Shown: in pieces, positions 5,026 to 60,200 of the stretch
Position numbering within the stretch: position 1 is the first letter of the stretch
How the letters are laid out: each line of letters starts with the position of its first letter
Assembly: GCF_036417845.1 (NCBI RefSeq)
Contig: NC_089979.1
Span: forward strand, 48,058,775-48,122,774
Reading direction: 5' to 3'
Length of the DNA: 64,000 nt
Source of the DNA: Apteryx mantelli
Lineage: Eukaryota; Chordata; Aves; Apterygiformes; Apterygidae
Position numbers and translations under genes: made by a program
The notes under the pieces: model-generated
The model's database searches: none
The model's input: the letters and a program-made list of their open reading frames with translations, nothing else
What the model was told of the DNA's origin: nothing

Positions 5026-6813
5026 GGAATGCAAAAGGAAATGCGTGGCTGCACCAAGCTTGCTCCTAGGACACCTTTGTCTTTTAAGGCCAGCGGGGGG
5101 CTGGTAGGCCCAGGTTCAGGCCATGCCAGAGATTAGGGTTACGGTTAGGGTTAGGGTTAGGAGAGAGAGAAAGGCTAGAGCGATATGTGGAGTGGGGCTG
5201 CAGAGGGCATTTCAAAGGAAATGGGTGGCTGCACCAAGCTTGCTCCCAGGACACCTTTGTCTTTTAAGGCCGCCATGGTTCTGGTGTGGCCAGTTTCAAC
5301 CCATGGCAGAGATTAGGGTTAGGGTTAGGGTTAATATTAGGGTTAGGAGAGAGGGAAAGGCTAGAGTGCCATGTGGAGTGGGGCTGCAAAGGTCATGCGA
5401 AAGGAAAAGCGTGGCTGCAGCAAGCTTGCTCCCAGGACACCTTCGTCCTTTAAGGCCGGCATGGGTCTGGTGTGCCCAGGTTCAGGCCATGCCAGAGATG
5501 AGGGTTAGCGTTAGGGTTAAGGTTAGAGTTAGGGTTAGGAGAGAGAGAAAGGCTAGAGCGATATGTGTAGTGGGGCTGCAGAGGGCATTTGAAAGGAAAT
5601 GGGTGGCTGCACCAAGCTTGCTCCCAGGACACCTTTGTCTTTTAAGGCCGGCATGGGTCTGGTGTGCCCAGGTTCAGGCCATGCCAGAGATTAGTGTTAG
5701 GGTTAGGAGAGAGAGAAAGGCTAGAGCGATATGTGGAGTGGAGTTGCAGAGGGCATGCGAAAGGAAATGCGTGGCTGCAGCAAGCTTGCTCCCAGGACAC
5801 CTTTGTCTTTTAAGGTTGGCGTGGGTCTGGTGTGGCCAGGTTCAACCCATGGCAGAGATTAGGGTTAGGGTTAGGGTTAAGGTTAGGGTTAGGAGAGAGA
5901 GAAAGGCTAGAGGGCCATGTGGAGTGGGGCTGCAAAGGTCATGCGAAAGGAAAAGCGTGGCTGCAGCAAGCTTGCTCCCAGGACACCTTTGTCTTTTAAG
6001 GCCAGCATGGGTCTGGTGTGCCCAGGTTCAGGCCATGGCAGAGATTAGGGTTAGGGTTAGGGTTAAGGTTAGGGTTAGGAGAGAGAGGAAGGCTAGAGCG
6101 ATATGTGTAGTGGAGCTGCAGAGGGTATGCGAAAGGGAATGCGTGGCTGCACCAAGTTTGCTCCCAGATCACCTTTGTCTTTTAAGGCCGGCATGGTTCT
6201 GGTGTGGCCAGTTTCAACCGATGGCAGAGATTAGTGTTAGGGTTAGGGTTATGGTTAGGCTTAGGAGAGAGAGAAAGACTAGAGCGCCATGTGGAGTGGA
6301 GCTGCAAATGTCATTCAAAAGGAAATGGGTGGCTGCAGCAAGCTTGCTCCCAGGACACCTTCGTCCTTTAAGGCCGGCGTGGGTCTGCTGTGCCCAGGTT
6401 CCAGCCATGCCAGAGATTAGGTTTACGTTTAGGGTTAGGGTTAGGGTTAGGTTAGTGTTAGCGTTAGGAGAGAGAGAAAGACTAGAGGGCCATGTGGAGT
6501 GGGGCTGCAGAGGGCATTTGAAAGGAAATGGGTGGCTGCACCAAGCTTGCTCCCAGGACACCTTCGTCCTTTAAGGCCGGCATGGGTCTGGTGTGCCCAG
6601 GTTCAGGCCATGGCAGAGATTAGTGTTAGGGTTAGGGTTAGGGTTAGCGTTCAGGTTAGTGTTAGGGTTAGGAGAGAGAGAAAGGCTAGAGCGATATGTG
6701 TAGTGGGGCTGCAAATGTCATTCGAAAGGAAAAGTGTGGCTGCAGCAGGCTTGCTCCCAGGACACCTTTGTCTTTTAAGGCCGGCATGGGTCTGGTGTGC
6801 CCAGGTTCAGGCC

Positions 6814-7221
6814 ATGCCAGAGATTAGGGTTAGCGTTAGGGTTAGGGTTTAGGGTTAGGTTAGTGTTAGGTTTAGGAAAGAGACAAAGGCTAGAGCGCCA
6901 TGTGGATTTGGGCTGCAAATGTAATGTGAAAGGAAATGGGTGGCTGCAGCAAGCTTGCTCCCAGGACACCTTTGTCTTTTAAGGCCGGCATGGGTCTGGT
7001 GTGCCCAGGTTCAGGCCATGCCAGAGATTAGGGTTAGCGTTAGGGTTAGGGTTTAGGGTTAGGTTAGTGTTAGGTTTAGGAAAGAGACAAAGGCTAGAGC
7101 GCCATGTGGATTTGGGCTGCAAATGTAATGTGAAAGGAAATGGGTGGCTGCAGCAAGCTTGCTCCCAGGACACCTTTGTCTTTTAAGGCCGGCATGGGTC
7201 TGGTGTGCCCAGGTTCAGGCC
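6814..7221 (+). repeat. Two adjacent identical 204-bp satellite units
   Basis: Units 6814-7017 and 7018-7221 read identically over all 204 bases. Shared private variants include TTAGGTTTAGGAAAGAGACAA in the purine box, GGATTTGGG in place of GGAGTGGGG, and GTAATGTGAAAGG. This implies a very recent unequal exchange or conversion, or an assembly duplication. Confidence 0.93.
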
Positions 7222-10200
7222 ATACAGAGATTAGGGTTAGGGTTAGGGTTAGGGTTAGGAGAGAGAGAAAGGCTAGAGTGCCATGTGGAGTGGGGCTGCA
7301 AAGGTCATGCGAAAGGGAAAGCGTGGCTGCAGCAAGCTTGCTCCCAGGACACCTTTGTCTTTTAAGGCCGGCATGGGTCTGGTGTGCCCAGGTTCAGGCC
7401 ATGCCAGAGATTAGGGTTAGGGTTAGGGTTAGGGTTAGGGTTAGGGTTAGGAGAGAGAGAAAGGCTAGAGCGATATGTGGAGTGGGGCTGCAGAGGGCAT
7501 TTGAAAGGAAATGGGTGGCTGCACCAAGCTTGCTCCCAGGACACCTTTGTCTTTTAAGGCCGGCATGGGTCTGGTGTGCCCAGGTTCAGGTCATGCCAGA
7601 GATTAGGGTTAGCATTAGCGTTCAGGTTAGGGTTAGGGTTAGGAGAGAGAGAAAGGCTAGAGGGCCATGTGGAGTTGGGCTGCAAATGTCATTCGAAAGG
7701 AAATGGGTGGCTGCACCAAACTTGCTCCCAGGACACCTTTGTCCTTTAAGGCCGGCATGGGTCTGCTGTGCCCAGGTTCAGGCCATGCCAGAGATTAGGG
7801 TTAGGGTTAGGGTTAGGGTTAGGAGAGAGAGAAAGTCTAGCGCGCCATGTGGAGTGGGGCGGCAAAGATCATGCGAAAGAAAATGGGTGGCTGCAGCAAG
7901 CTTGCTCCCAGGACACCTTTGTCCTTTAAGGCCGGCGTGGGTCTGCTGTGCCCAGGTTCCAGCCATGCCAGAGATTAGGTTTACGTTTAGGGTTAGGGTT
8001 AGGCTTAGGTTAGTGTTAGCGTTAGGAGAGAGAGAAAGGCTAGAGCGATATGTGTAGTGGGGCTGCAGAGGGCATGCGAAAGAAAATGGGTGGCTGCACC
8101 AAGGTTGCTCCCAGGACACCTTTGTCTTTTAAGGCCGGCATGGGTCTGGTGTGGCCAGTTTCAACCCATGGCAGAGATTAGGGTTAGGGTTAGCGTTCAG
8201 GTTAGGGTTAGGAGAGAGAGAAAGGCTAGAGTGCCATGTGGAGTGGGGCTGCAAAGGTCATGCGAAAGGAAAAGCGTGGCTGCAGCAAGCTTGCTCCCAG
8301 GACACCTTTGTCTTTTAAGGCCGGCATGGGTCTGGTGTGCCCAGGTTCAGGTCATGCCAGAGATTAGGGTTAGCGTTAGCGTTCAGGTTAGGGTTAGGGT
8401 TAGGAGAGAGAGAAAGGCTAGAGGGCCATGTGGAGTTGGGCTGCAAATGTCATTCGAAAGGAAATGGGTGGCTGCACCAAACTTGCTCCCAGGACACCTT
8501 TGTCCTTTAAGGCCGGCATGGGTCTGCTGTGCCCAGGTTCAGGCCATGCCAGAGATTAGGGTTAGGGTTAGGGTTAGCGTTTGCTTTAGTGTTAGGGTTA
8601 GGAGAGAGAGAAAGGCTAGAGCGATATGTGTAGTGGAGCTGCAGAGGGTATGCGAAAGGAAATGGGTGGCTGCAGCAAGGTTGCTCCCAGGACACCTTTG
8701 TCCTTTAAGGCTGGCATGGGTCTGCTGTGTCCAGGTTCAGGCCATACAGAGATTAGTGTTAGGGTTAGGGTTAGGGTTAGGGTTAGGGTTAGGAGAGAGA
8801 GAAAGGCTAGAGCGATATGTGTAGTGGAGCTGCAGAGGGTATGCGAAAGGAAATGGGTGGCTGCAGCAAGCTTGCTCCCAGGACACCTTTGTCTTTTAAG
8901 GCCGGCATGGTTCTGGTGTGGCCAGTTTCAACCCATGGCAGAGATTAGGGTTAGGGTTAGCGTTAATATTAGGGTTAGGAGAGAGAGAAAGGCTAGAGCG
9001 CCATGTGGAGTGGGGCTGCAAAGGTCATGCGAAAGGAAAAGCGTGGCTGCAGCAAGCTTGCTCCCAGGACACCTTTGTCTTTTAAGGCCGGCATGGGTCT
9101 GGTGTGGCCAGTTTCAACCCATTGCAGAGATTAGTGTTAGGGTTAGGCTTAGGCTTAGGCTTAGGAGAGAGAGAAATGCTAGAGCGCCATGTGGAGTGGG
9201 GCTGCAAATGTCATTCGAAAGGAAATGGGTGGCTGCAGCAAGCTTGCTCCCAGGACACCTTTGTCTCTTAAGGCCGGCATGGGTCTGGTGTGGCCAGTTT
9301 CAACCCATGGCAGAGATTAGGGTTAGGGTTAGCGTTAATATTAGGGTTAGGAGAGAGAGAAAGCCTAGAGTCCCATTTGGAGTGGGGCTGCAAATGTCAT
9401 TCGAAAGGAAATGGGTGGCTGCAGCAAGCTTGCTCCCAGGACACCTTCGTCCTTTAAGGCCGGCATGGGTCTGGTGTGCCCAGGTTCAGGCCATGCCAGA
9501 GATTAGGGTTAGCGTTAGGGTTAAGGTTAGAGTTAGGGTTAGGAGAGAGAGAAAGGCTAGAGCGATATGTGTAGTGGGGCTGCAGAGGGCATGCGAAAGG
9601 AAATGCGTGGCTGCAGCAAGCTTGCTCCCAGGACACCTTTGTCCTTTAAGGCCGGCATGGGTCTGGTGTGCCCAGGTTCCAGCCATGCCAGCGATTAGGT
9701 TTACGGTTAGGGTTAGCGTTTGCTTTAGTGTTAGGGTTAGGAGAGAGAGAAAGGCTAGAGCGATATGTGTAGTGGAGCTGCAGAGGGCATGCGAAAGGGA
9801 ATGCGTGGCTGCACCAAGTTTGCTCCCAGATCACCTTTGTCTTTTAAGGCCGGCTTGGGTCTGCTGTGCCCAGGTTCAGGCCATGCCAGAGATTAGGGTT
9901 AGGGTTAGGGTTAGGGTTAGGAGAGAGAGAAAGTCTAGCGCGCCATGTGGAGTGGGGCGGCAAAGATCATGCGAAAGAAAATGGGTGGCTGCAGCAAGCT
10001 AGCTCCCAGGACACCTTCGTCCTTTAAGGCTGGCGTGGGTCTGCTGTGCCCAGGTTCAGGCCATGCCAGAGATTAGGGTTAGGGTTAGTGTTAGCGTTAG
10101 GAGAGAGAGAAAGCCTAGAGCGATATGTGGAGTGGGGCTGCAGAGGGCATTTGAAAGGAAAAGTGTGGCTGCAGCAAGCTTGCTCCCAGTACACCTTTGT

Positions 10201-11223
10201 CTTTTAAGGCCGGCATGGTTCTGGTGTGGCCAGTTTCAACCCATGGCAGAGATTAGGGTTAGGGTTAGCGTTAATATTAGGGTTAGGAGAGAGAGAAAGG
10301 CTAGAGTGCCTTGTGGAGTGCAGCTGCACAGGGCATGCGAAAGGAAAAGCGTGGCTGCAGCAAGCTTGCTCCCAGGACACCTTTGTCTTTTAAGGCCGGC
10401 ATGGGTCTGGTGTGGCCAGGTTCAGGCCATGGCAGAGATTAGTGTTAGGGTTAGGGTTAGGGTTAGCATTCAGGTTACGGTTAGGCTTCGGAGAGAGAGA
10501 AAGGCTAGAGCGCCATGTGGAGTGGGGCTGCAAATGTCATTCGAAAGGAAATGGGTGGCTGCACCAAGGTTGCTCCCAGGACACCTTTGTCTTTTAAGGC
10601 CAGCATGGGTCTGGTGTGCCCAGGTTCCAGCCATGCCAGAGATTAGGGTTACGGTTAGGGTTAGCGTTCAGGTTAGGTTAGGGTTAGGAGAGAGAGAAAG
10701 GCTAGAGGGCCATGTGGAGTTGGGCTGCAAATGTCATTCGAAAGGAAATGGGTGGTTGAACCAAGCTTGCTCCCAGGACACCTTCGTCCTTTAAGGCTGG
10801 CATGGGTCTGGTGTGCCCAGGTTCAGGCCATGCCAGCGATTAGGTTTACGGTTAGGGTTAGCGTTTGCTTTAGTGTTAGGGTTAGGAGAGAGAGAAAGGC
10901 TAGAGCGATATGTGTAGTGGAGCTGCAGAGGGTATGCGAAAGGGAATGCGTGGCTGCACCAAGTTTGCTCCCAGATCACCTTTGTCTTTTAAGGCTGGCA
11001 TGGGTCTGGTGTGCCCAGGTTCAGGCCATGCCAGAGATTAGGGTTAGGGTTAGGGTTAGGGTTAGGGTTAGGAGAGAGAGAAAGGCTAGAGCGATATGTG
11101 TAGTGGGGCTGCAGAGGGCATGCGAAAGGGAGTGCACGGCTGCAGCAAGCTTGCTCCCAGGACGCCTTTGTCTTTTAAGGCCGGCATGGGTCTGGTGTGC
11201 CCAGGTTCAGGCCATGGCAGAGA

Positions 11224-11265
11224 TTAGGGTTACGGTTACGGTTACGGTTACGGTTACGGTTGCGG
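11224..11265 (+). repeat. Variant telomeric tract (TTACGG)5
   Basis: The tract of the last satellite unit has one TTAGGG followed by five consecutive TTACGG hexamers and one TTGCGG. Elsewhere in the array TTACGG occurs only singly, so this run points to local expansion of a mutated hexamer at the array edge. Confidence 0.9.
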
Positions 11266-11523
11266 TTGGGAGAGAGAGAAACGCTAGAGAACCATGTGGA
11301 GTGGGGCTTCAAAGGGCATGCCAAATTGAATGTGTTACTCCACCAAGCTTGTTCCCAGGAAAACCTTGGCTCTTGTCTGCGAATTGTGCTTGTATGCCCA
11401 GTTTCAGTCCCCACCCCATATTTCTAGTGGGTTAGCATTAACCTGTACCCTGGTGCTACCCCTTTTTTCTTTTGTCGCCTAAAGCTAGCGTCGCCATTCC
11501 CCTTCTTTTCTAAGTGTCATTAT

Positions 11524-11623
11524 TGTCCTAGTAGCAAACTTGTTGCAGCCACACATTTCCTTTGGCATTCCCTTTGTATCCTCACTCCACCCTGCGCTCT
11601 AGCCTTTCTCTCTTTCCTAATCC
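11524..11623 (-). repeat. Degenerate satellite unit in inverted orientation
   Basis: Read on the minus strand, this stretch reproduces the order of the satellite body: a telomere-like GGATTAGG remnant, an AAAGAGAGAAAGGCTAGAGCGCAGG box, GGAGTGAGG, AAAGGGAATGCC, AAAGGAAATGTGTGGCTGCAACAAG, and a relic of GCTCCCAGGAC. On the + strand this appears as GTTGCAGCCACACATTTCC, CTCTAGCCTTTCTCTCTTTCC and CCTAATCC. Sequence back to about 11441 may belong to the same unit but is too diverged to be sure. Its orientation faces the main array, giving a TTAGGG-to-CCCTAA head-to-head layout. Confidence 0.8.
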
Positions 11624-11627
11624 GAAA

Positions 11628-11870
11628 CATAGAATCACAGAACCAGAGAATTGTTTGAGGTTAGGAGATCACCTGGTCTAATCACCCTCCTCTGGCACAG
11701 TCTTCTATACCGCATTGCCCGGGATCGTGTCCAGACAGCTTTTGAATATCTCCAAGGGTGCAGATTCTTCAACTTCTCTGTGCAACCTATTCCAGTGCTG
11801 AGTCACACTCAGTAGTATTTCCTCGTGTTCAGACAGTACTTCCTGTGTTTCAGTGTGCCTGCGTTTCAGG
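11628..11870 (-). mobile_element. CR1 LINE, 3' end fragment
   Basis: On the minus strand this ends in the CR1 3' terminal motif (TTCTGTGATTCTATG) and contains characteristic 3' region words, seen on the + strand as CACCTGGTCTAATCACCC, CTTTTGAATATCTCCAAGG, CAACCTATTCCAGTGCTGAG and GTGTTCAGAC...TTCCTGTGTTTCAG. The 5' limit is vague because similarity fades after about 11870. It is truncated and non-coding. It abuts the inverted satellite relic with only a few bases between them. Confidence 0.88.
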
Positions 11871-48544: not shown

Positions 48545-48707
48545 CAACCTTGAGCACATTATTTTTGTTCTCAGTATTTATTTGTGTGAGTTTTATGTGT
48601 CACGGTGCCACAATGAGGAACACTAACTTTCCTTCCTAGATTACTCTCTAGATCACCCTGAAACAATTTGATTTATATCTTTAAACATCTTAATTAACAT
48701 CATTTGT

Positions 48708-49150
48708 AGCAGGGCTACAAAGATGATTAGGGGACTGGAGCATCTCTCTTATGAGGAAAGACTCAGAGAGCTGGGCCTGTTTAGCTTGGAGAAGAGAAGA
48801 CTGAGGGGGGATCTTATCAATGTGTACAAGTATCTGAAGGGAGGGTGTCAAGAGGATGGGACCAGACTCTTTTCAGTGGTGCCCAGTGACAGGACGCGAG
48901 GCAACAGGCACAAACTGAAACACAGACAATTCCATCTGAACATGAGGAAATACTTTTTCACTGTGAGGGTAACAGAGCACTGGAACAGGTTGCCCAGAGA
49001 GGTTGTGGAGTCTCCTTCTCCGGAGATATTCAAAACCCACCTGGATGCAATCCTGTGCAATATGCTCTAGGTGACCCTGCTTGAGCAGGGGGGTTGGACT
49101 AGATGATCTCCAGAGGTCCCTTCCAACCTCAGCAATTCTGTGATTCTGTG
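48708..49150 (+). mobile_element. CR1 LINE, 5'-truncated 3' end
   Basis: This is a typical avian CR1 tail. It starts abruptly in the coding region (AGGGCTACAAAGATGATTAG), runs through the end of ORF2 and the short 3' region (GGTTGGACTAGATGATCTCC, TCCCTTCCAACCTC), and ends in two tandem ATTCTGTG octamers at 49135-49150. 5' truncation and lack of a poly(A) tail are normal for CR1. Its good preservation suggests it is the youngest CR1 in the window. Confidence 0.97.
48723..49070 (+). pseudogene. CR1 ORF2 C-terminal remnant
   Basis: One hundred and fifteen codons remain open from an internal Met to the natural stop (TAG). The segments [31 protein letters not shown] and [14 protein letters not shown] are hallmarks of the extreme C-terminus of the CR1 endonuclease/reverse transcriptase protein. 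The endonuclease and the catalytic reverse transcriptase motifs lie upstream in a full element and are missing here, so the copy cannot move by itself. Confidence 0.95.
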
Positions 49151-53654: not shown

Positions 53655-55440
53655 AATGTCATCATAACTAATATGAATTTTGATTTTAATTTTAATTGAC
53701 TGACATGGTTTTAGGTTTGCCTTTTGAAGGTATTTTGTACTCTCCTCCATAAGGAGTAGTAAGTAAATTGCATTTTTGTGACCTTCTCAAAGCAGTGAGC
53801 TATTTATTGCAGAGGAACCTTCCTACTGAAGGAAAAGTAACGCTTAAAGAAGTCAGATGGAGGATGATCTGAGTATTCTTTTCAGAGCAGGTGCCTGGGC
53901 CTAGCTGTCTACCACAACTATGTGCAAGTCATGGAGAATCAATTAAAATGACACAACCGTCTCTGGAAATTCATTTTTGATAGTCTTACACAAATGTCCC
54001 TATATATTTAGGTTAAGCTGTTATGCCACAAGTTTTCTCATGATCATCACAGTAGCACTTAGGGCCTTACAAAAGTGCAGCTAGTAGTCTAAACATAAGC
54101 TTCCTTTACTTAGCATACTTTCATCTATTCTAAGTTAGCATTTTAACTACAATTAATACAAAATTAACAATCTTGAGCTGAAGGCATGGCACTTACTTTT
54201 AGCTATGCAGAGAGAGTGATGCATACAGCACTACTTACTGTTACTCCACACAAAAGTTAGGGCCAGTCTTAAGATCGCCTGTACTATGAATCTTACTCCT
54301 GTCACAGATAGGATTCTGCAAATCGTCATTGTCTTGATATTCTAATGTCCTCCCCTATGTTTACAGCAAGGCAAAAATCTACAAAAATAATATCAAAACC
54401 ACTAACAGAAGTGAAATATCAGAGAAGTATGTGTCAATTAATACTGAGCTATTACAGTTAATACAGTAAATTAATAGTATTAATACATAAAAATTAAGTA
54501 GTAATAACACTGTATCACATATAAAATTAATTTTACTTTAATGAGTGGTGGTTGTCCACATGCAACTAGTTAAAACAAAGTTACAATACATTTTTGCTTC
54601 AGAATACCAGGTTCATGTTCATAAGGACTATCTACAATACAGTCTGCTGAAGCTTCCAGTATAAGTCATATATGTATATGGTAGTTATGTTATACTCTGC
54701 TTAATAAAACAAATGATATACATTAACTTGCACAGCAGCTATTGGTGTTTCAGAAACAATTTTGGGACAAAACGCATTACCCAATCTATCCAGCTAATAC
54801 CCATTGCAATAACATCCATCAAATATTACTTACAAATCTGTTTCAGAGAAGAAGGAAGGGAATTTTCACTCTCTCTCCTATGGAAACTCTCATTGGGAAA
54901 TTCCGGTGTCCATGCTCTGTATCAAAGTGACAATCAGTAAGTTCCTATGTGGCTATAGATTGTTACTATATGTATTGTATTCTACTGTGCTTTATGTACT
55001 GTACTGTACAAAATGTTCCTTTTCAACAAGCAGCAATTTTGGAGGACACTAGAGTAGCTCCTTATTTAACTAAACTATTTAAGCTTGTGGGTTTGTTATT
55101 ACTTTCATTTATTTGCATTACTTCACTGATTAACCAATCAATCCACATTTCTAGCTCTGATGTTCAATTACTTAATTGACTTAGCCTTTTTACATTTATG
55201 ATATGAAAATACTGAAAAGGAAGCCTGCAGACTAGAAGCTGTTTGCCTGTGACTGAAGTAAAGGAAGTGGTAAGTTCATCCCCCTTAGCCTAAAGGATAA
55301 TTCTACATGACCCAGCTGTGCTGGGTGAACAAAAGTATTTGTCCCAATTAATTATTACCAAAATAAAATGAAGTTATCAATAAGGTCTGTTGCATAAAAC
55401 CCATACTGCAAGCATAGTGACTGAGAGGAAATTGTAGAAT

Positions 55441-55453
55441 GGGGGGGGGGGGG
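55441..55453. repeat. Poly(G) tract
   Basis: Thirteen consecutive G residues. This is a common sequencing and assembly error site and a potential G-quadruplex former. Confidence 0.95.
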
Positions 55454-55687
55454 AACAATTCTGTATTTCCATTCTTTTTACCCTACTTCAGAGTAAATGC
55501 AACACATTTTAACAGCCCAGACCTGAATTCTTGTGCAACCCGACTCGGCTGCTATCGCAGGTGCACCCAGGCACATCCTGGCTGGATGCCAGCCCCTTGG
55601 CACACATCTTCCCAACAGTGACAGCTGCAGAGGAATGGAGAGATGGCTGGCTTGACCCTATGACCTAGCAACTTGGTGGTAGCTAAG

Positions 55688-55693
55688 GTAAGT
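55688..55693 (+). other. Candidate 5' splice site
   Basis: GCTAAG|GTAAGT is close to the ideal vertebrate splice donor. It sits in a moderately GC-rich stretch (about 55530-55690) just ahead of the CpG island, so it could end a non-coding or alternative first exon. No transcript evidence is available. Confidence 0.25.
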
Positions 55694-56275
55694 CGCTGAA
55701 GCAAGAAAGAATAATCGTCACTTTAAGCGAAGCTGGTATTAGAGGCCTTTAAAATATGATTTCCATGAAACAGGTTTGAGAATAAACCCTGGAGCGTCTA
55801 GACTACATAGACGAATTCAGCAGTTTTAAAAGTGCAAGTGTAGCCAAATCTTTAGGGAATGTTTTCTATAATCTGCGCTGGAGAGCTGCTCTGGGGAGAG
55901 CGCTCAGGTCTGACAGCTCCGACTCTCATAGACCACTGTTCTGGGCCAAAAGCAGCTCAAGTGCATGACTTACGACAGCGATTGGTACGGGGCCGTATCG
56001 ACGGCAGCCGCGGCGGCGGAGGCAGGCCGAGCTCCCCTCAGATGCCCGAGGGGTCCCCGCCCGCCCGGCCCCAGCCCTTCCCCCACCGCGGCCACCTGTC
56101 CGCCGACAAAAGGCGGGGGAGGAAGGGCACAGCAACGGCACCGCCTGCCTCGCGGCCGGGCACAACCGGAGCGGCGGGAGAGACGGGGCGCAGCCCGCCA
56201 GGCCCTGAGGGGAGGGGGGGGAGGCTCCCCCCCCGCCCCCGTCTCCCCAACGGCTCTTCCCGCCCCGCCCCCTCG

Positions 56276-56285
56276 GCCACGTGAC
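56276..56285. promoter_or_regulatory. E-box, GCCACGTGAC
   Basis: CACGTG core with a GTGAC right flank, as bound by USF and MiT/TFE factors; it is one base from the symmetric GTCACGTGAC form. Confidence 0.45.
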
Positions 56286-56390
56286 GCTCGCGAGGCCCCT
56301 CACAGACCCCAGCCACGCCGCGGCCGAGCCCCCCTCACACCTCCTCCTCTTCCGCCCGCCCCGGGGATACAAGCGATTTCACGTCGGCAG

Positions 56391-56406
56391 CCAATCGGGA
56401 GGGCGG
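56391..56406 (+). promoter_or_regulatory. CCAAT box with adjoining GC box
   Basis: CCAATCGG, the NF-Y type pentamer and flank, is followed directly by GGAGGGCGGG, an Sp1-type GC box. The spacing is typical of TATA-less promoters. Confidence 0.5.
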
Positions 56407-56428
56407 GCTCGCTTTCCTCTTGCCTCCC

Positions 56429-56433
56429 ATTGG
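56429..56433 (-). promoter_or_regulatory. Inverted CCAAT box
   Basis: ATTGG in the context CCCATTGGCCC, 38 bases downstream of the forward CCAAT; paired NF-Y sites at this kind of spacing are common. Confidence 0.45.
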
Positions 56434-56572
56434 CCCGGAGCGCGGGGCGTCGCGCGCCCGCCGCAGCAGAGCGGCAGCACCGCCGAAGCCCCCAGCCCTC
56501 TCCGCTGGAGCGCGGGGCGGGAGGGCGCGCGCGCCCGCCGCAGTTCTGCAGTCCGCTGCCGCGCCGGGGCTC

Positions 56573-56582
56573 GCGCACGCGC
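56573..56582. promoter_or_regulatory. NRF1-like site
   Basis: GCGCACGCGC resembles the palindromic NRF1 consensus (GCGCATGCGC) with one central change. Confidence 0.35.
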
Positions 56583-56610
56583 CCAACCGCCGCAGTAGCC
56601 GGGTCTCTGC

Positions 56611-56619
56611 GGGGCGGAG
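56611..56619 (+). promoter_or_regulatory. GC box (Sp1-type)
   Basis: GGGGCGGAG, within the likely core promoter or 5' UTR. Confidence 0.4.
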
Positions 56620-56746
56620 CCAGGCCGCGCGGCGCCGCGCCGGCCGGGTGCAGCGCGCTCCTCGCCGGTGCGGGAGGAGGTGGGAGCGGCGGGACAGGGC
56701 AGGGCAGGGCTGGGCGCGGAGGTGTCTTTCCCCGCCGGCAGCGGGG

Positions 56747-56857
56747 ATGCTGCAGCCGCCGCTCGTGAGGCGGCAGCAGGCGGGAGAGCGGGCGGCCGCG
56801 GCGCCCGGCGGCATGAACAGCAGCGGGAGCCGTCCCCAGGCCCCGCGGCAGCGCTAG
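56747..56857 (+). other. Upstream open reading frame (36 codons)
   Basis: An ATG at 56747 (a second in-frame ATG at 56813) opens a frame that closes at 56857, ahead of the B4GALT6 start. It acts as a uORF only if transcription begins upstream of it, which is not known. Confidence 0.35.
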
Positions 56858-57030
56858 GCGCCCCTCCCCGCTCCGGCCGGCCCCCGCGGCGGCGGCGCCA
56901 GCCCGCCCCGAGGCGCAGCGCGGCGGCAGGGCCCCCCTCGCCGCCGGCCTCTCCCCCTGCTCCGCCGCTCCCGGGGAGGCGGCGGCAGGGAGAGCGGGAG
57001 CCCCCTCTCCGCCGCCTCGCCGCCCGGTCC

Positions 57031-57087
57031 ATGGGAGGAGCTCGCCGCCGCCCGGTGGAAGGTGCCGCCGCCGCTCACCGGGATTGA
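57031..57087 (+). other. Upstream open reading frame (18 codons)
   Basis: The ATG in TCCATGGGAGG has G at +4 but T at -3; the frame stops at 57087, 37 bases before the B4GALT6 ATG and in a different frame. It very likely lies within the 5' UTR, so it could lower translation of the main frame. Confidence 0.45.
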
Positions 57088-57124
57088 GAGCGGCGGCCGC
57101 CGGCCGGGCCGGCTCGGAGGGAGG

Positions 57125-57239
57125 ATGTCAGTGCTGCGCAAGGCACTGCGGGTCTCCAATCGCTCCATGCTCGCCTTCATCTTCTTCTTCTCCTTCTCTT
57201 CGTCCTGCCTCTACTTCATCTATGTGGCCCCCGGCATCG
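57125..57239 (+). CDS. B4GALT6: B4GALT6 coding exon 1 (partial gene)
   Basis: Codes for the first 38 residues plus one base of beta-1,4-galactosyltransferase 6, a Golgi type II membrane enzyme that transfers galactose from UDP-galactose to glucosylceramide to make lactosylceramide. Visible here are a short basic cytoplasmic tail (MSVLRKALRVSNRS) and a membrane anchor at residues about 15-34 (LAFIFFFSFSSSCLYFIYVA) followed by APGI. The pattern fits B4GALT6 rather than its paralogue B4GALT5, whose tail differs and whose anchor lacks the SSSCLYFIYV spelling. The ATG has A at -3. The exon ends at CATCG|GTGAGT, a strong donor in phase 1; the split codon starting with G fits the Ala expected next. 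The catalytic domain is encoded by later exons outside the window. A CpG-island promoter suggests broad expression. Confidence 0.95.
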
Positions 57240-60200
57240 GTGAGTCGGGAGCCGCCCCCTCGGGGGGAGGAGGGGCGGGGTGGGGGGAGGTGGGCGCGCG
57301 GCCCAACGGACGCGGCGCCGCGGCCCCGGCTCCGGCCCTGCCCGGGCGGGCGGCGGCCTCGGCGGGGCGCAGCCCGACTCCCCCGGTCTGCCACGCCGGG
57401 CTCCTGCGCAGGGAAGCCGTTGGGAAGGGCAGGCACAGCGCCGGGGGAAGCAGGTCTCGCCGTTTAAAACGCGCCCCCCCCACACACACACCTCCTCGGT
57501 GAGGGAGGGTCAGAGCTGTGGCGGCTGTGAGCGACCACCGAGGCTCGCAGCGCTGATAACTTGTGTTCATTTTGCATCTGCGTTCTGTTAATCTCAAATG
57601 CTCTAGAAGATTCATCTGCCACCGCCAGGTAGGTGAGTGCCGTTCTTATTTCCCAGGCCGGAAAGGTGAGGCAAAAAGAATCTGCTCACCGTTTCATCAT
57701 GTTATAAATTAGTTGCTGAAACCAGGAAAGAGCTGCGAAGTTGCCTGCTGGAGTCACCTAAGTGCATCTTTTAAATCATTAGTAATTGCATTAGTAATAA
57801 AGCACATGTGAACATAAATCAAGAATCAATTTGAATTTTTGTCATTTTCTTCTGTCTGTGGGATGTCTCTTCACAGGTTTTACAGTTAGTTAACTTCCAC
57901 TTCCCAAAGTATCACTTCAGCGCGGGAAGAAATGGTTTGTATAAGAAATGTTACCTAAAACAACTGTGCAAGTCTAGATCAGATTTTTTTTTTTTTAAAT
58001 TCTGTGCTGTTTTCCTAGTTTGTTCTGTTGTTTCTGGGAAAACATCAGACAGCTTCTCACTGGATGATGCTTTCAGCAATTGGTTAATGTTGCCTTTGAA
58101 ATAAGGCAAGAAGTATTCTTCTGTGTGGTGCTGTGATATTTCACTGTTTCATGTCTTTGGCTAGGTTACATGTTTTCTTTTTTCCAGGGAATGCTGACAC
58201 TTTATTCATGAGTTCCTTCCCAAATACCTGTAAAGCCACCTCAACGTACTTCTTCAGTGCTTAAAACTCTTCTCTGCAGTGATTACTACAAAATGTCCAC
58301 ACTGATTAGGCAGCTGAATCTCTGTGGTGATCGTTTCATGCACACTGGTGTCTTCTTGCTGTTTAGCATCCTCTTGTTCATTTTTTACTTAGTTAGTAAA
58401 ACCTTTCAAGGTGCAGTAACTTCTCCTATATTTACAGCACCTCATACAATATTGGCATGCCTGTCAATAATTATTACAGTTCAAATAAATGTAAAAAATA
58501 ACTAGGGAATATATCATGGACTAGAGTTCTTGAATTTCTTGCCTGATAATGTTTTCCCATTGAATGGGATGTAGTTTAGTCTTTTGTAAATGAGAGAATG
58601 ATGCTACCAATGTCCATTTAGACATTTTAGTTCTATGAAGCACTCATGTAATATCACAATAGACTTTAAATACAAGCAGTTGGTGTATGATTTAGAAAGC
58701 AAACTGCAGTTTCCACGTTTTTAAATAGTTAAACAAAACTATTAACATCTTGCATAATATACAGAGCTGAAGTATTACTTCAGCACCATTTAAAAGTGTC
58801 TTCTTCACTGCATATTTTCTCTTAGAAATCCATCCACTGATGTATTATTGAGGCTTGTTCCTTAGCTTGTTTAGAATCAGAGCATCCAATAATAGACTAC
58901 TTTCCTGACTTCATCTTGCTACTAAACTATTGGTCATTGGTTATCTCCATTTTCCTCTGAAAAATAAAAGAGTACCAGTGAAATGCAATCAACAGCATGC
59001 ACCAACGGAATTCTTACAGTAGGTTATTTAACATAGGTCGGATCAACCCTAAGAAAAAATCATATTCACTTAAGCTGGTCTCTCTTCTCATCTTGGACAC
59101 ATATACTGCAGTTAGCATTTTCAAGCTGTAGTTTTATGATGTAAAAATCTTCAGCAGTGTTATCAGTTTGTGAGATTACAGCTCTTCCCAGTCACTGTTC
59201 TGCAGTGTGCTACCCAAACTCTGTATGCAGTTGTGTTGTGAGCTCCTCCAGCTTAAATCAAAACCCTTCAACACTGGGGGTTATTCTTTGTCACTTCCCA
59301 AATCCAGTTCAAAGTGCTACCATGCTGTGCTGGTCTTACTGGGGGAGGGAATATAGCAAGTGATAAAGGAAAAGGAAATAGGAAAATCTTCCACTGGTAA
59401 TCTAAACCTGTCAACTTTCAGATGTCATGATGGTTTCCCAGGAATTTGCTCCTGAAAATGTTACTGTGTAGAATAGAGAAAAATAAAATATTTTAGCAAA
59501 ATAAAATCTTATTATCCTAAAATAAAATTAAGGGCCACCCTGGCAATATTCTCGGGGAAAATGTAACATTTTTAAGAGTGGAAGATTTGGCAAAAAATAA
59601 AAAATCCCCCAAGTTAATAGACAGTATTATTAGTATTATGATTTCTAGTCACCTAGTAATCGTATACTGTGTGCTTATGCCATTTGCATGTTGCAATATG
59701 CACTTGCTTCTTTCACTATCAGCAGCAGAATAGGTGTATCTAAATCAAAGCTGATTGTGTGTGTGTTGGGGAGGGGGAGGATTAGTTAAAGATCGCTGAC
59801 TGGAGTTTAGCCACCTTACCTATTAGTAGCATTTCATGAATACATTCCTATATTGTGTAGGAAAAGTAAAAACATAAAAAGAAGCAATATTTGTAGAAAA
59901 AATATACTGCATTTCAGTCATAAATAGTTGGAATCTGACATAAGGCATGTGTACAGGTATGCTTTAGTGAATGTATTTTGGTTCACCAGAATGGTTTCTT
60001 CCTCAACAAGAATCACAGAGAAGCTACAAGACACATGGCAGAAGAGTGGAAAGTTCTAATGTGTTGTCGAGAACTGGAACTGCTTTCAGGCTTGTTTCCC
60101 TTCCTGATGATGGTGGGAACTGGAAGAAGAGCAAGAAGCTGGATTCCCAATTGTTGTACGGGACAGCAGCATATTGGAAGGTGGGAGGGAAAAACAAGTG

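Follow-up and report, generated by a model that had tools for sequence, protein, structure and literature searches.

The tandem array under study lies in a window (the whole analysed stretch of DNA) of 64,000 nucleotides and is understood, with a probability of roughly 0.8, as one array of an old and dispersed avian satellite superfamily whose monomer of about 185 bp comprises a body of about 150 bp and a telomeric tract. Body and tract amplify jointly with fixed junctions, dozens of interior sites across many chromosomes hold the composite, and a homogeneous cousin array extends over at least 318 kb of C6. The first-pass annotation of this DNA had proposed a composite satellite in which tract and non-telomeric body were amplified as one unit, and it had suggested a local event as the origin; the former part is borne out, the latter is not.

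Tandem Repeats Finder reports a 186-bp unit in 33.2 copies between 5,029 and 11,360 and, together with a parse into units, confirms the 33 head-to-tail units of tract plus body noticed earlier (Table 1); the body, previously put at 145-150 bp, measures 153-154 bp in the parse. The first unit is cut on its left side and starts inside the body, and both body halves are present in 32 of the 33 units. The junctions between tract and body are constant, all 33 tracts occupying the identical unit position, and the tracts hold 104 exact TTAGGG hexamers within 1,240 bp. Tract lengths range from 15 to 51 bp and in 28 of 33 cases equal 3 modulo 6; the length differences are therefore mostly hexamer steps. 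The array has a GC content of 0.53, and its bodies differ pairwise by 10% on average (32 units). It evolves by whole-unit duplication and short-patch exchange, and its tracts mostly by hexamer steps: the longest exact duplication is found at a lag of one unit, the 202-bp exact repeat at a four-unit lag is a multi-unit duplication, and allele linkage (r2) declines from 0.23 to about 0.05 over about 50 bp. Higher-order structure was not seen in the array, the mean divergence being flat across lags 1-19.

The array also continues past the interval initially assigned to it, through a decayed direct unit (to about 11,443) and then part of an inverted one (11,521-11,631). The region 11,426-11,660 scores 76.5, compared with a maximum of 15 among 400 random window pieces. 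Clear significance of the inverted unit is limited to its outer 111 bp; the score for 11,444-11,520, its possible remainder, is to be read against a 99th percentile of 12.5 and a maximum of 14.5 in 400 random pieces. The repeat adjoining the inverted unit at ~11,636 is presumably CR1-like.

Table 1. Features of the satellite array and its right edge (window positions).
Feature	Position	Strand	Details
Array of 33 direct units	5029..11267	+	body 153-154 bp, (TTAGGG)n tract 15-51 bp
First telomeric tract	5133..5159	+	
Last of the 33 tracts	11224..11267	+	32 tracts follow the first, spacing 168-204 bp
271-bp repeat, longest exact duplication	6749..7223	+	lag 204 bp (one unit)
202-bp exact repeat (7,615-7,816 and 8,376-8,577)	7615..8577	+	lag 761 bp (four units)
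Decayed 34th direct unit with remnant tract	11268..11443	+	76% across 177 aligned bases
Possible remainder of inverted unit	11444..11520	-	score 13.0; a 68.6% alignment extends across
Inverted partial unit, starting in a remnant tract	11521..11631	-	

In the window's own genome (1.50 Gb), the same composite is found at 36 further fetched loci, distributed over C1, 2, 3, 4, 5, 9, 11, 14, 16, 18 and 22. The locus set is biased, for 13 of the 36 were found via a core pattern, and the excess on C2, which holds 17 of the 37 loci, may partly reflect a C2 query. Conservation of a 30-bp core (0.90-0.96 at 22 loci, but only 0.86-0.89 with every unit of 14 loci included) is partly ascertainment and was not seen within the window array. 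When gaps between same-strand units outside the window are counted and those longer than 140 bp dropped, exact TTAGGG is present in 121 of 140 and absent from 19, compared with 0.9% in flank controls. All 31 loci that have a countable gap include TTAGGG-bearing ones; at L039, where the tract is nearly lost, they number 2 of 11. A common flanking element was not found, the flanks of 24 loci (window included) giving 19 hits. A short-type interstitial telomeric sequence, that is, a tract within unique sequence, is ruled out by the genome-wide repetition of the flanking body.

The family shows the hallmarks of a satellite, with head-to-tail units of one length class that are homogenised and with within-locus distances mostly below those between loci. 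Across 23 loci, units lie on average ~19% from the consensus and 31% from the units of other loci. Measured against a between-locus distance of 0.31, the within-locus distance is 0.18 for three window units, 0.14-0.18 for nine loci (L009, L011, L012, L018, L022, L032, L034, L035 and L037) and, more weakly, 0.21-0.29 for five (L016, L033, L036, L038 and L039); at L019 and L020 (0.33 and 0.34) it is no lower than between loci. Furthermore, loci lying within a few megabases of each other on a chromosome show a closer kinship than expected. In a residual test, applied after correction for locus-wide divergence, the likeness of loci less than 5 Mb apart (17 pairs) exceeded that in any of 2,000 permutations, and it is this test that is significant; a same-chromosome test uncorrected for locus-wide divergence gave p 0.21. 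Kinship of neighbours could also stem from gene conversion between arrays instead of from local spread.

Coding capacity was considered as well, one forward frame of the window array being open for up to 488 aa. A coding array is rejected: 1,438 of 2,000 shuffled bodies also keep an open frame, and variable sites number 20, 25 and 21 at the three codon positions (of 51 each), an even spread. The longest open reading frame gave two Pfam hits, each under its cut-off. Rfam returned no gathering-score hit within the window. Exact matches were also lacking in viral and prokaryote collections, which is what one expects of DNA from a bird.

The family has diverged cousins on C6, on C1 and, as judged by pattern, on C3. 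Against the family HMM, the cousin bodies from C6 and C1 score E ~1e-13, where the best of 80 shuffled sequences reached E 2.7. A core pattern gave 2,192 exact matches, and its backwards control gave none. The C6 array follows the same body-plus-tract plan as the window array; it was present in six of six samples from 19.62 to 19.84 Mb, with 96-98% identity, was absent at 19.518 Mb, and contains a 200 N assembly gap near 19.791 Mb and a strand-switched block. Given the composite at 36 other loci and the cousins on C1, C3 and C6, the tract most likely belonged to the ancestral monomer. The C6 block, characterised by its size, homogeneity and place, might be a centromere. On a bolder and less likely reading, tract-bearing monomers would provide one or more chromosomes (C6 among them) with their centromere, and the interior arrays, including that of the window, would be seeds or fossils of such centromeres. 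If so, telomeric hexamers in each nucleosome-sized monomer would contribute to forming and moving avian centromeres, and the C6 reading would fit with the (TTAGGG)n in chicken centromere cores. The canonical CENP-B box was sought on both strands of the window array and not found; this box is not universal among centromeric satellites.

As regards the mechanism of dispersal, pieces of arrays would have spread by break repair or as reinserted excised circles, mostly within one chromosome, with microhomology probably involved at the joints and with strand switches probably arising from fold-back template switching. After spread, every array would have been homogenised in place, and the small arrays may be what remains of satellites that in some places reached centromere size, or library members of these. 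The tract is probably kept mainly through renewal by slippage.

Persistence of the tract might alternatively reflect selection for a functional element in each unit, either binding shelterin or acting as a G-rich seam of replication or recombination. The forward strand of the window array carries 102 sites of YTAGGGTTR, the TRF1/2 core motif. Divergence is slightly lower in tracts (0.166) than in bodies (0.207), a difference that 20 of the 30 loci show (Wilcoxon p 0.014) and that is reversed in L041 and nine others. However, slippage renewal could account for the small divergence difference, and L039 is a locus almost without tract. At equal distance, linkage does not drop across the tract relative to the body, and therefore no recombination seam is shown. 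A selected tract appears unlikely.

A foldback-like DNA transposon presents a different account of dispersal, in which the loci are insertions, the inverted arms are composed of tandem units and the multi-unit arrays are expanded arms. The long inverted arms of the Drosophila elements FB and Galileo are built from tandem units in this way. Both strands are present in 9 of the 37 loci, L034 and L032 resemble two facing arms, an exact 12-bp direct repeat flanks L042, and the kinship of nearby loci is what local hopping gives. Against this, 28 of the 37 loci involve a single strand only, the open frame of the window array looks non-coding, and the 74 array edges occur at many unit phases instead of at fixed ends. 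Edges fall in the tract in 21 of 74 cases (p 1e-4, computed with a reference tract of 21 bp, but real tracts average 33 bp) and near body position 50 in 11 of 74 (p 0.052).

Array edges share slightly more short matches than chance, an observation counter to the satellite reading that would also fit target duplications of a transposon. When the comparison is given a slop of 6 bp inward, matches between the two edges of a locus are longer than in permuted pairs (4.68 vs 3.96; 0/1,000; 0/400 in another test with slop), and the signal persists when L042 and L037 are left out (9/1,000). The outside left flank compared with the right edge, again with slop, gave 6/1,000 (8/1,000 without L042). Shared hexamers as the cause received no support from this result or from an inside-only comparison (114/1,000). 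With strict flanks, however, the excess is not found, neither at 20 bp (3.89 vs 3.88, p 0.48) nor at 14 bp (316/1,000), and microhomology at repair joints would yield the slop signal too. We read the signal as microhomology or short duplication and regard the transposon as improbable.

A local event would have involved either a subtelomere that a fusion or inversion left stranded, or a repair that joined telomeric DNA to unique sequence, followed by amplification. All 33 tracts share one direction, and a direct and an inverted tract may come together near 11,440, which would be the head-to-head (TTAGGG)n(CCCTAA)n arrangement of a fusion-type interstitial telomeric sequence. The inner inverted half there scores 13.0 (null 99th percentile 12.5, maximum 14.5), clear significance being confined to the outer 111 bp. 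Both variants are contradicted by the composite at 36 other loci and by the diverged arrays on C1, C3 and C6. None of the 37 loci is subtelomeric, the closest (on C11) lying ~2.96 Mb from a contig end, and the supposedly unique flanking body is repeated throughout the genome. Such an origin is very improbable here. An assembly artefact is scarcely credible, despite the gap and strand-switched block in the C6 array, given that the window contains no N, that the array unit is unmatched elsewhere in the window and that a mean unit difference of 10% is hardly a product of collapse or misjoining.

The dispersed satellite has implications for cytogenetics, where interstitial TTAGGG signals in FISH are often taken as scars of chromosome fusion. 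With many hundreds to thousands of monomers carrying TTAGGG, such signals can arise without fusion. The arrays, with their chromosome-biased subfamilies, constitute a test set for satellite spread, and the family also allows testing whether telomeric DNA helps make avian centromeres.

Satellites with TTAGGG inside the monomer are already known. PaB6 of the plant Prospero autumnale, as described in PMC4273535, has a 249-bp monomer containing TTAGGG repeats and a 256-bp variant that arose via TTAGGG insertion. By description, it resembles the window family as a tandem satellite with TTAGGG within the monomer itself; it differs in being pericentromeric and from a plant, and in having seven intact, dispersed TTAGGG in place of one continuous tract of variable length (PMC4273535). 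Short interstitial telomeric sequences, which PMC7215372 describes as break-repair insertions with insertion-free orthologous loci, share with the window tracts the short interior TTAGGG, whereas the window tract is part of a monomer. Among birds, the emu satellitome is reported to comprise 24 DnoSat families (PMC11036779). In the chicken, small satellite families are interspersed within chromosome arms, as is the window family, but the account in PMC4992247 describes no telomeric tract for them. The centromeric satellite APL-HaeIII of the duck is comparable in its 190-bp monomer and its GC content of 51.6%, near that of the window array (PMC6435179, PMC7787181); it differs in that the main text of PMC6435179 mentions neither TTAGGG nor telomeres, a comparison by description only. 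The centromeric tandem repeats of chicken macrochromosomes are usually chromosome-specific according to PMC9974502, and there, too, bird satellite arrays are tied to telomeric hexamers: in the chicken (TTAGGG)n is embedded in arrays of CNM, a 41-bp repeat, whereas in the kiwi family the tract is found in most of the ~185-bp monomers.

The array in the window is part of a genome-wide composite satellite and is not just a local feature. The first-pass annotation had described thirty-three head-to-tail units, each joining a telomeric tract to a non-telomeric body, and this structure is confirmed. The extent it gave, 5026..11430, encloses the 33-unit array; beyond it come a 34th, decayed unit and, further out, a partial unit in inverted orientation. 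Its reading of the composite as the product of a local event did not survive: beside the window (G000:C2:48,058,775-48,122,774; genome size 1,504,198,195 bases), 36 further loci were fetched, making 37 on 11 contigs.

Features of the array and its surroundings, in positions of the window
Feature	Position	Strand	Remark
Array of 33 direct units	5,029-11,267	+	body plus telomeric tract in each unit
Decayed 34th unit	after 11,267	direct	past the first-pass interval
Inverted partial unit	11,521-11,631	-	outside the first-pass interval
CR1-like retrotransposon remnant (presumed)	11,636-~12,000		adjoins the inverted partial unit
CR1-like retrotransposon remnant (presumed)	48,672-49,070		of a type typical of birds
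CpG-island-like stretch	~55,000-58,000		GC up to 0.69; contains an open frame

The open frame in the CpG-island-like stretch contains a segment that resembles the N-terminus of B4GALT6, a putative B4GALT6-like first exon, and no Pfam match was found for it. This segment and the CR1-like repeats are the signs in the sequence of a bird host. In the window array, bodies measure 153-154 bp (the first unit's is cut), and the tract, made up of TTAGGG and its close variants and 15-51 bp long, occupies a single fixed site in every unit, with unit lengths of 168-204 bp. Tract length changes mostly by whole hexamers, since 28 of the 33 tracts have a length of 3 mod 6. Divergence between bodies averages 10%; in an alignment of 32 units, 87 of the 154 columns do not vary, and lags 1-19 show no higher-order period. 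The longest exact internal repeats are offset by one, four and eleven units, and the linkage of variable sites falls off over about 50 bp: the array changes by whole-unit duplication plus short-patch exchange. Body changes are transition-poor (35 transition vs 42 transversion states), and single-base tract variants mainly replace G by C or T; oxidised guanine as the source of the array's base changes is a guess.

The further loci came from whole-unit searches and from a 29-base pattern which, at up to 3 mismatches, has 98 matches (control, 0); L023, contained in L032, was left out. Outside the window, loci hold 1 to 24 unit matches, partial ones included. Exact TTAGGG occurs in 121 of 140 same-strand inter-unit gaps there (gaps over 140 bp dropped) and in 0.9% of flank pieces, and all 31 loci having a usable same-strand gap contain a TTAGGG-holding one. 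None of the 37 loci comes closer than about 2.96 Mb to the end of a contig. C2 holds 17 of them, against 4.3 expected (p 1.8e-7), an excess to which the C2 origin of the first query may have contributed; C3 holds eight, C5, C9 and C16 two each, and six other contigs one each.

Mean unit distance is about 19% to the family consensus and 31% to units of other loci, within-locus distance being mostly below the latter (23 loci; exceptions L019 and L020), which is understood as an old, star-like family under local homogenisation. With locus-wide divergence removed, the 17 locus pairs no more than 5 Mb apart are closer than expected (0 of 2,000 permutations as low); a same-chromosome kinship test without that correction gave p 0.21. 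Array pieces probably spread via break repair or circle reinsertion, mostly within chromosomes. Outside the window the tract is slightly less diverged than the body (0.166 vs 0.207; lower in 20 of 30 loci, p 0.014), for which slippage renewal may be enough. At L039 (C3:10.34 Mb; twelve unit matches) TTAGGG is retained in 2 of 11 gaps, and the tandem array persists although the tract has decayed.

Comparison of flanks across 24 loci (13 fetched later lay outside it) revealed no common element: its 19 matches, spread over 8 flanks, comprise 14 between L013 and L039, four that link the CR1-like repeat of the window with L014, L015 and L016, and a single match of L021 with L040. No fixed end was seen at array edges (37 loci), and sequence shared by two flanks strictly outside arrays showed no excess (p 0.48). 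Allowing 6 bp slop, the matches between the two edges of a locus are slightly longer than those of permuted pairs (4.68 vs 3.96; 0 of 1,000; 9 of 1,000 with L042 and L037 removed), which fits repair-joint microhomology or short target duplications. The clearest target-duplication-like mark among the 37 loci is the exact 12-bp direct repeat GCATTAGACACT flanking the array at L042, whose edges lie near 2,914 and 3,295. Both strands are present in 9 of 37 loci. By eye, strand changes in the L022, L032 and L034 inversions lie at or near ...GCC/TAACCC or GCC/CTAACCC (slash, switch point), where the start of the body and the complement of the tract share a few bases; fold-back template switching would give such switch points.

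On C6, Tandem Repeats Finder (1.5 kb) returns a 186-bp unit with 96% matches, and a 34-base pattern has 1,772 matches (control 0), solely on C6 among the matches listed. The array is present at 6 of 6 samples across 19.620-19.840 Mb (identity 96-98%) and absent from the sample at 19.518 Mb, which puts its span at no less than 318 kb. An oppositely oriented block of ~23 kb (C6:19.7678-19.7911 Mb; samples L059, L060), ending at a 200-N assembly gap, reflects either a genuine inversion or the way the assembly was scaffolded. A centromere reading of the array is possible but unproved.

Diverged cousin arrays are indicated by a pattern across the junction of tract end and body start (620 matches), a C1/C3 subfamily pattern (626) and the core AAAGGGNNTGCCAAAGSAAR (2,192 exact matches), each with control 0; these sets overlap, and places are known only for the matches listed first. 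Samples L054 (C6) and L055 (C1:90.88 Mb) hit the family HMM with E values near 1e-13 across at least 130 positions, the best E among 80 shuffled sequences being 2.7, while L056 (C1:136.3 Mb) has tract and body start with few full bodies. The C3 cousins are known by pattern only; at C3:68,731,568-68,742,816, among the matches listed, spacings of 1473, 555, 742 and 1840 bp recur, which amounts to higher-order repetition every 4,610 bp, or about 25 units.

In full-text literature, mostly non-subscription and excluding supplements, no avian satellite turned up that is described as having a telomeric tract in every monomer. Emu satellite families (PMC11036779) are a possible match to this family. 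The plant satellite PaB6 (PMC4273535) carries TTAGGG within its monomer, and the kiwi family is like it in having TTAGGG as part of the satellite monomer.
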